From: Sediminibacterium sp.
Lineage (GTDB): Bacteria > Bacteroidota > Bacteroidia > Chitinophagales > Chitinophagaceae
Direction of reading: 5' to 3'
NCBI GenBank assembly: GCA_030158535.1
Contig: JAOASV010000220.1
Span: 1-38,752, forward strand
DNA length: 38,752 bases
This document shows, in pieces, positions 30,876 through 32,519 of the stretch (within the stretch, counting starts at the first letter, position 1; each line of letters starts with the position of its first letter). The notes under the pieces are model-generated. The model was not told the origin of the DNA, searched no databases, and saw only the letters and a list, made by a program, of their open reading frames with translations. The position numbers and the translations under genes are program-made.

Positions 30876-30960
30876 AGAGAGGTGTCCGAGTGGTTGAAGG
30901 AGCACGCCTGGAAAGTGTGTATACGGCAACGTATCGAGGGTTCGAATCCCTTCCTCTCTG
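30876..30960 (+). tRNA. tRNA-Ser(GGA)
   Basis: Acceptor AGAGAGG/CCTCTCT, anticodon loop CTGGAAA (anticodon GGA), long variable arm (GTATACGGCAACGTATC), T-loop GGTTCGAATCCC, discriminator G. 3' CCA not encoded. Confidence 0.93.
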
Positions 30961-30961
30961 C

Positions 30962-31156
30962 GAAGTCTTTTAAAATGCGAAGTTGCGAATCAAGCTTGCT
31001 TGAATGAGCAAATGAGCGTTTTAAAAGAGAAACAAAAGTGAAACTTTTGTTTCAAAGACTTTGGTAAAAGAGAATTTTCGGGGATGGCAACGAACAAAGT
31101 GAGTTGACAATCCCAAAGAGAATCTCTTGGATGACAATGCGCAGCATTGGCAATCC
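30962..31156 (+). repeat. Noncoding array of inverted repeats between tRNA-Ser and the pyrC 3' end
   Basis: CTTTTAAAATGC (30967-30978)/GCGTTTTAAAAG (31016-31027); perfect 11-bp GAAACAAAAGT-GAA-ACTTTTGTTTC (31029-31053); GGGATGGCAAC (31081-31091)/GTTGACAATCCC (31103-31114); GGATGACAATGC-GCA-GCATTGGCAATCC (31129-31156). Confidence 0.85.
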
Positions 31157-31166
31157 GTAGATAATT

Positions 31167-32519
31167 CTATCTATCTCTCTCAAACTTCAACCGCATCCCA
31201 TTATTAGTAGCACTCATCACACCATTGTCATAAACCACATTTCCATTAACAAATGTTTTCATCACTTTACTTTTAAATGTATAGTTTTCAAATGGTGACC
31301 AAGCACATTTGTAGAGTAGGTTTTCTTTAGTTGCGGTCCAGCTATTATTAAGATCCACCATCACTATATCTGCGTAGTAGCCTTCTCTAATATAACCACG
31401 TTCTTTTAGTCTATAAATTTCAGCTACATGATGGCTTGTTTTTTCTACAATTTTTTGCAGCGGTAATTTATTCTGATGGTATAATTCTAGTAGTGCAGGT
31501 AATGCGTGTTGCACGAGCGGCCCGCCCGACATGGCTTTTGTGTAGTTGCCACTTTTTTCTTCTATTGTATGTGGTGCATGGTCGGTAGCAATAATATCAA
31601 TTTTGTTATCTAGTAATGCCTGAATGAGTCCTTCTTTGTCGTTACTTGTTTTAACGGCAGGGTTCCACTTTATTTTTGAACCTAGCGTATCATAATCTTT
31701 ATCAGTGAACCATAAGTGGTGCACACAGGCTTCTGCGGTTATTCTTTTATCTCTAATGTTTTGTTGCTGCTCAAATAAAGCTGCTTCCTTTTGTGTAGAA
31801 ATATGAAATAAGTGAAGTCTGTTATTGTGCTTTTTGGCAATCTCTAAAACTCGTTTAGTAGCTTCAACGCAAGCTTCTTCTGTTCTAATGAGGTGATGAT
31901 GGTTAAAAGGAATATTATCACCAAATTCTTTTTTGTATCTATCTGTATTGGTTTTAATAATACTGTCATCTTCACTATGAAGGGCTGTTAGTATGGATGT
32001 TCTTGCAAATAATTTTTCTAGATAATCTGGATAGTTGGCTAATATGCCGTGGTCGTTGTTAAAGTAGAGACCATCATCTGTGATGCCGCATACGTTTTCA
32101 GGATCGGTTAAAAGGGCTTCTTCCAAATTGTCTTGGTTGATGCCCATAAAAAACGAATAGTTAATAAGCGATGAAGCGGATGCTATCTTATATTTTTCTT
32201 CGAGTAAGGCTTGTGTTAATGTGTTAGGAATGGTATTGGGCATATCCATAAAAGACGTAATACCGCCTGCGGCGGCAGCTTTTGACTCGGAAGCAATGGT
32301 TGCTTTATGGGTTAAGCCCGGATCTCTAAAATGCACCTGATCATCAATACAGCCTGGTAGTAGGTGTAGGTTTTCGCCATTAATTTCTTGTACTTGTGCG
32401 TTAGCAGGTAGGTTAATACTCGTTGCAATTTTTTCGATGCGCTGGTTGCTAATTAGTACGTCAGAAAAAAATATTTTTCCTTCGTTAACAACTGCTACGT
32501 TTTTAATGAGGTGTTTCAT
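31167..32519 (-). CDS. pyrC: Dihydroorotase-like protein (Bacteroidetes PyrC subgroup) with atypical ligand motifs
   Basis: PGCIDDQVHFRDPGLTHKATIASESKAAAAGGITSFMDMPNT, ITAEACVHHLWFTDKDY, IKWNPAVK, DIIATDHAPHTIEEK and GPLVQHALPALLEL. Confidence 0.88.
   Translation of the reverse strand: MKHLIKNVAVVNEGKIFFSDVLISNQRIEKIATSINLPANAQVQEINGENLHLLPGCIDDQVHFRDPGLTHKATIASESKAAAAGGITSFMDMPNTIPNTLTQALLEEKYKIASASSLINYSFFMGINQDNLEEALLTDPENVCGITDDGLYFNNDHGILANYPDYLEKLFARTSILTALHSEDDSIIKTNTDRYKKEFGDNIPFNHHHLIRTEEACVEATKRVLEIAKKHNNRLHLFHISTQKEAALFEQQQNIRDKRITAEACVHHLWFTDKDYDTLGSKIKWNPAVKTSNDKEGLIQALLDNKIDIIATDHAPHTIEEKSGNYTKAMSGGPLVQHALPALLELYHQNKLPLQKIVEKTSHHVAEIYRLKERGYIREGYYADIVMVDLNNSWTATKENLLYKCAWSPFENYTFKSKVMKTFVNGNVVYDNGVMSATNNGMRLKFERDR

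Follow-up and report, generated by a model that had tools for sequence, protein, structure and literature searches.

The interval between the tRNA-Ser(GGA) gene and pyrC in the analyzed stretch of Sediminibacterium sp. DNA (38,752 nucleotides, referred to here as the window) is occupied almost entirely by inverted repeats. The question raised by this locus is whether these 195 nt represent a chance assembly of hairpins, a terminator shared by two genes, a structured trailer of the tRNA transcript or a repeat that inserts at tRNA 3' ends. The tRNA gene, an intact host gene on the plus strand, extends from 30876 to 30960 according to Rfam, while ARAGORN placed its end at 30961. The discriminator G is located at 30960 and is followed by a C at 30961, a base that can already be used by the outer helix of the downstream structure. 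The convergent neighbor, the reading frame of pyrC (dihydroorotase; 31167-32519, minus strand), has its end at 31167, outside of the element. Each of the inverted repeats listed in the initial annotation was found in place, and its claim that the block is noncoding was confirmed, since no protein-coding frame crosses it. The 195-nt block folded at -65.8 kcal/mol, compared to -40.1 +/- 4.1 kcal/mol for dinucleotide shuffles (z -6.2, 0 of 200). This difference, together with the covariation among the copies described below, led us to reject chance hairpins.

The hairpin array is therefore real, but it is not a series of four equal hairpins. The block consists of one junction unit (30961-31063), made up of the elements P1, P3 and H2, followed by two copies of a module designated P5. 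Its first ~105 nt represent a single copy of a structured family. The family plan comprises the outer helix P1, a terminator-like hairpin H1, the hairpin P3, which is long and has a CUUG-type loop, and the hairpin H2. The fold and the alignment of copies placed the 5' strand of P1 (CGAAGT) at 30961-30966 and its partner (ACTTTG) at 31058-31063, and the two strands of P3 at 30967-30978 (CTTTTAAAATGC) and 31016-31027 (GCGTTTTAAAAG). The P3 core (30983-31011), the most conserved sequence of the family, has an inner stem, TTGC/GCAA, and an apical stem, TCAAG-CTTG-CTTGA, that closes the CUUG-type loop; the core stems are flanked by the two internal loops of P3. H2 (31029-31053) is a perfect 11-bp stem with the loop GAA. 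AATCCC, the 3' strand of the T-arm of tRNA-Ser(GGA), is echoed in the downstream modules. The stem of the first P5 copy (31081-31114, GGGATGGCAAC...GTTGACAATCCC) contains the T-stem sequence ATCCC and its complement, an assignment based on a permutation test against the tRNA's own T-stem, while the second (31129-31156, GGATGACAATGC-GCA-GCATTGGCAATCC) is supported both by this test and by tandem P5 arrays in relatives. All of these features are on the plus strand. In relatives, H1 and its T-run are found just before P3, whereas the window copy lacks H1. Although somewhat decayed, the window copy is otherwise typical of the family.

The feature is not local to the tRNA-Ser gene. A second copy of the junction unit, 76% identical over 103 nt, occurs elsewhere in the same genome. 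A covariance model, R1, gave five matches in this genome and between 3 and 19 in most genomes of the same genus (Sediminibacterium-type freshwater Chitinophagaceae), with none in 3 of the 24. Exact matches to the core, in a scan of named genomes, were found in freshwater Chitinophagaceae, in Sediminibacterium MAGs and in other MAGs labelled Bacteroidetes; the core pattern had no match in a viral collection. A second covariance model, R2, used for the genomes of the order and the phylum, detected the family in 33 of 199 genomes of the order at the threshold used and in 18 of 297 drawn from the phylum, with matches that span several families and groups outside of the window's class.

Nearly all copies begin directly behind a tRNA. 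A total of 89 distinct copies, with 23 tRNA labels, start at -1 to +10 nt of the tRNA end assigned by ARAGORN. In the complete genome G017, which has 34 tRNAs, all seven forward matches start 0-10 nt after a tRNA and none were found elsewhere. Among distant loci, the best ones are likewise situated after tRNAs (Ser, Pro, Arg, Leu, Lys, Asp, Phe, Met and Gln). The earlier suggestion of a repeat family that resides at tRNA 3' ends is thus borne out by copies behind many tRNAs. The absence of other copies and of covariation had been named in advance as grounds for abandoning that suggestion; both were looked for and both exist. Three further findings go beyond the initial annotation, namely that tRNA 3' ends recur as direct repeats, that the later hairpins derive from the T-stem and that there is a link to GIY-YIG nucleases.

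Copies without an adjacent tRNA were considered as possible evidence of free dispersal, an interpretation that was rejected on inspection. In most cases the preceding sequence is a fragment from the 3' part of a tRNA, a tRNA gene split by a group I intron or a conserved flank that is not a tRNA and resembles the end of an island. In G008, tRNA-Ser is followed by unrelated DNA, and a Ser-type element much like that of the window lies beside such a flank on another contig; in this genome and in others, islands appear to have entered between the tRNA and the element. A conserved flank encoding ...IGASLEEFAGDVRAIL... recurs in L003, L025, L027, L045 and L047, often as tandem fragments followed by the same terminator. 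It was considered as a small protein beside four copies, had no Pfam match and resembles the terminus of a family of islands that enter between a tRNA and its element; the opposite terminus may begin with ATGAAAATCAAGG.CTTACGTTAAATCGTGGGTCC (L044, L061). Truncated 3' halves of tRNA-Met(CAT), starting near the anticodon loop and followed by a full element, were present in L049, L056, L061, L094, L098 and L099 and are probably attachment-site remnants of islands. A group I intron in L036 (230-422; RF00028, 44.3 bits against a threshold of 50, E 3.6e-10) lies just upstream of a tRNA-like 3' exon that follows tRNA-Gly(GCC), and similar upstream sequence occurs in L096 and L102. The intron is probably located in the tRNA-Leu(UAA) of these freshwater Chitinophagaceae.

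The fold was evaluated in two alignments, A1, which comprised 21 copies aligned with MAFFT, was not fitted to structure and is independent of the model, and A3, which contained 78 distinct rows. In A1, 95.5% of the cells were paired, compared to at most 51% when the partners were slid, and there were changes on both sides in 26 of the 43 pairs. In A3, where compensatory counts lean towards the model used to align it, double changes occurred in 41 of the 43 pairs and 97% of the cells were paired, compared to at most 52% when slid. P1 was 97.6% paired over the 78 distinct copies. The covariation exceeded that of shuffled and slid alignments, as is expected of a structured RNA family.

The cells that were not Watson-Crick pairs revealed the strand on which the structure is maintained. 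Read on the tRNA strand, 147 were G-U and only 9 were A-C, with ratios of 73:0 in P3 and 33:1 in H2; A1 alone gave 39:4. Since G-U is far more frequent than A-C, the structure must have been selected on the tRNA-sense strand, most simply as RNA. Selection on both strands, or on a reverse transcript, would not give this bias, so that it is the tRNA-sense RNA, or a single DNA strand, that is selected. Moreover, because the bias includes H2, selection sees the tRNA-sense strand beyond the H1 terminator. The proposal that the block is a structured tRNA trailer gained support from both the covariation and this bias. The segments around the T-runs, AAAGCC, GGCTTTTTT, AAAAAAGCC and GGCTTT, can pair in two ways, first with second and third with fourth or second with third and first with fourth. 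Both alternatives are supported by covariation, in the window (30961-31065) and in the family consensus, and as judged from the sequences a possible role for the four segments, with their two mutually exclusive pairings, is that of an RNA switch.

Several signs of insertion were found. Distant copies are followed by a downstream copy of the 3' end of their own tRNA, consisting of the 3' strand of the T-stem, the acceptor strand, the discriminator and often the terminator. The match of this direct repeat was better with the tRNA at the locus than with exchanged tRNAs (p <= 0.0005 for distant members and 0.006 for the genus), a signal that is evident in the distant members and weak in the genus. 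Exact examples are L202, L212, L213, L217, L219, L227 and L073. The repeat is mostly decayed in the genus and is not recognizable in the window copy. In a permutation test, P5 stems corresponded to the T-stem of the tRNA at the same locus in both groups (p = 0.0002), and P1 was found to extend across the spacer, which is specific to each locus, as far as the tRNA (p = 0.0002). Mirrored parts are limited to the spacer or terminator and the T-stem; an inverted downstream copy of the acceptor strand, suggested by eye, was rejected (p 0.98 and 0.68). L227 contains tandem units of 177 nt. In L040 (23-405), six 48-nt repeats of the P5 module GGATGACAATGCGAAGCATTGGCAATCC lie behind the end of a core element. 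An empty site was also identified. In L015 only 25 nt separate tRNA-Ser from the next gene, while the same gap is 274-291 nt in four relatives that have the same downstream gene. One of the four, L018, has an element of unrelated sequence with the same plan, and other relatives have an ordinary terminator at the tRNA-Ser locus.

It could be argued that the element does no more than insulate a tRNA gene from its neighbor or terminate transcription from both sides, as an elaborate intrinsic terminator, and that the inverted repeat arises from the facing T-runs of two terminators. H1 with a T-run right behind the tRNA is part of the family consensus and was seen by inspection in most other copies. 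In the window, a pattern scan predicted that H2 and its T-run form a terminator-like site on the minus strand, facing pyrC, and the element is quasi-palindromic, so that the model weakly matches the reverse strand as well. The part of the initial proposal in which the block could serve pyrC is thus supported. The other part is not, since no terminator-like site was detected by the pattern scan on the plus strand of the window copy. In addition, the next gene was convergent in only 42 of 73 cases and otherwise oriented in 31, and the excess of G-U in H2 and P3 is the opposite of what a terminator on the reverse strand needs. Sequence conservation extends to the core beyond the T-runs, and the direct repeats of tRNA ends and the T-stem-matched P5 would be left unexplained. 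The strand bias and the orientation of neighboring genes thus weaken a bidirectional terminator as the whole story, and we regard it as unlikely.

A regulatory RNA of the host is another candidate that we consider rather improbable. The element would then be a processed 3' external transcribed spacer, released from the pre-tRNA and acting as a small RNA or sponge, or in the control of tRNA 3' maturation. RNAs derived from tRNA trailers are known in enterobacteria, and the element would work in a similar manner. Selection of the whole fold on the sense strand, a start exactly at the tRNA end and persistence across species are all accommodated by this explanation. On the other hand, the distribution is patchy, as the count for the order given above indicates, there is no fixed tRNA partner, and tandem duplication, direct repeats and empty sites also speak against it.

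Small nuclease genes were found in similar positions. One unit of the tandem array in L227 carries an 87-residue GIY-YIG frame (PF01541, 4e-17) in place of the core, after an almost identical tRNA end plus terminator. In L073, the core element occurs together with two GIY-YIG ORFs at neighboring tRNAs. The unit in the window contains no ORF and hence no GIY-YIG gene. Elsewhere, small GIY-YIG ORFs were found directly behind tRNA-Val, tRNA-Asn, tRNA-Asp and tRNA-Phe and before tRNA-Arg and tRNA-Met; most are surrounded by broken tRNA copies and some form tandem arrays of 7-8 units. On the basis of two loci, we suggest that the core element could be related to the GIY-YIG units, lacking the nuclease but spreading by a similar kind of homing repair.

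The following details of these loci were recorded. The small ORFs, of about 75-125 amino acids, were observed in L260 (1129-4024), L261 (711-3319), L262, L263, L264, L265, L266, L267 and L268, most of them directly behind, before or inside tRNA genes or broken tRNA copies; the ORF in L261 had no recognized tRNA copy. The tandem arrays in this set have 364-nt and 381-nt units in 7-8 copies. The tRNA copies near the ORFs contain short GC-rich hairpins, either within the anticodon arm or T-arm or in place of it. In L073 (1919-2365), a tRNA-Met has a duplicated, hairpin-interrupted 5' part, and a GIY-YIG ORF lies between the broken and the intact copies.

The linked nuclease also bears on the possibility that the element is a recombination site that folds as single-stranded DNA, like an integron attC site or the hairpin recognized by a recombinase or transposase, in which case the bias would reflect the DNA strand used. 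The fold is indeed strand-specific, tRNA 3' ends are classic integration sites and are here accompanied by direct repeats, and islands appear to have entered between tRNA and element. However, no recombinase gene is linked to the element, and where a nuclease is linked it is of the GIY-YIG type. Furthermore, the base of the element is variable and its apex conserved, a pattern from which attC differs. We consider a DNA site of this kind very unlikely.

The explanation that we favor, with a probability of roughly 60%, is that the family is a small element that inserts at the 3' ends of Bacteroidota tRNA genes and is transcribed as a structured tRNA trailer, the window copy being partly decayed. 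The element is probably non-autonomous. Several features read from the sequences have led us to this explanation, 1) the existence of the family and its position at tRNA ends, 2) the covariation and strand bias, 3) the direct repeats and the T-stem match, 4) the tandem arrays and the empty site and 5) the slot shared with a GIY-YIG unit. From these we infer mobility by homing, transcription past H1 and a role in tRNA maturation. The element, about 110 nt plus P5 and ~150-200 nt in all, would insert exactly at the tRNA 3' end, and the inserted unit would restore that end. H1 would supply a terminator hairpin right behind the restored tRNA, followed by the conserved structured core of P3 and H2, closed by P1. 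The unit would end in P5, the 3' strand of which would be a copy of the tRNA's own T-stem, and in fresh copies P5 would be followed by the acceptor strand and the old terminator, which form the direct repeat. Since the unit would be co-transcribed with the tRNA and the fold is selected on the tRNA strand, it would act as a structured trailer, one that allows the tRNA to be finished normally while the element persists. The element would spread through recombination or gene conversion at these 3' ends. GIY-YIG nucleases that target tRNAs, and that share its slot in at least one array, would probably assist in this. Many copies appear to have been inherited vertically. Compensatory change this strong is not required of a selfish insert, so that conservation may be due mainly to a host function. 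Moreover, each tRNA has its own matching repeat, so that a fixed attP-style element is no simple explanation of the family.

A broader form of the favored explanation is advanced tentatively. Bacteroidota may harbor phylum-wide tRNA-homing units in which tRNA genes are cut by GIY-YIG nucleases and then repaired by copying in units that use a duplicated piece to rebuild the tRNA end. The core element would be the non-coding, nuclease-free form, with an RNA fold that keeps the rebuilt tRNA functional in 3' processing or termination, so that the unit could be kept for a long time behind essential genes.

The family is a large, covarying group of structured-RNA-like sequences that has no Rfam entry and, in a major phylum, is anchored to essential tRNA genes at their ends. 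It is directly relevant to the making and termination of tRNA 3' ends in Bacteroidota and to the way in which small selfish or domesticated elements can reside within tRNA transcription units. The results further draw attention to tandem arrays of GIY-YIG genes built on broken tRNA copies, which make homing into bacterial tRNA genes directly testable.

No Rfam family other than tRNA reached its threshold in the window. A literature search, which covered few subscription papers, found no description of such a family at Bacteroidota tRNA ends and no report of GIY-YIG units in bacterial tRNA genes; the repeat family has apparently not been described before. The closest named structure is Clostridiales-1 (RF01699), which has been published only as a candidate RNA of Clostridiales and the human gut (PMC2864571). 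The window copy scored 35.8 bits against this model over 30961-31063, the exact borders of the unit, and a relative, L006, scored 24.9 bits; no other copies were listed at E 0.1. The threshold of 48 bits was missed, so that membership was rejected and the resemblance is a lead rather than membership. A search of 297 Bacteroidota genomes with RF01699 gave no match, a result that shows little because the same search was silent in control genomes too. In both structures an outer helix encloses two hairpins, the first of them long and with a CUUG-type loop, and these first three parts align. The third hairpin of Clostridiales-1, GGAU...AUCC, lies inside the outer helix, whereas P5 is outside of it.

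Among mobile elements, the free-standing GIY-YIG homing endonucleases (PF01541) found here are single-domain ORFs located inside tRNA genes or directly after them; copies of tRNA parts flank them, and some are arranged in tandem. The core element is present in the same array as one of these units but encodes no protein. Elements and islands of the tyrosine recombinase type at tRNA 3' ends have a precise site and a far-side direct repeat, as does the element described here. Unlike these islands, the element is under about 200 nt, contains no integrase gene and has a conserved RNA-like fold, and its one core is common to many tRNAs, each with its own repeat. Lastly, REP/BIME, MITE-like and RPE repeats are also short, non-coding, foldable and multi-copy, with tandem modules. 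They are dispersed between genes, whereas the element is bound to tRNA ends and, unlike them, exhibits strong covariation with a sense-strand bias.
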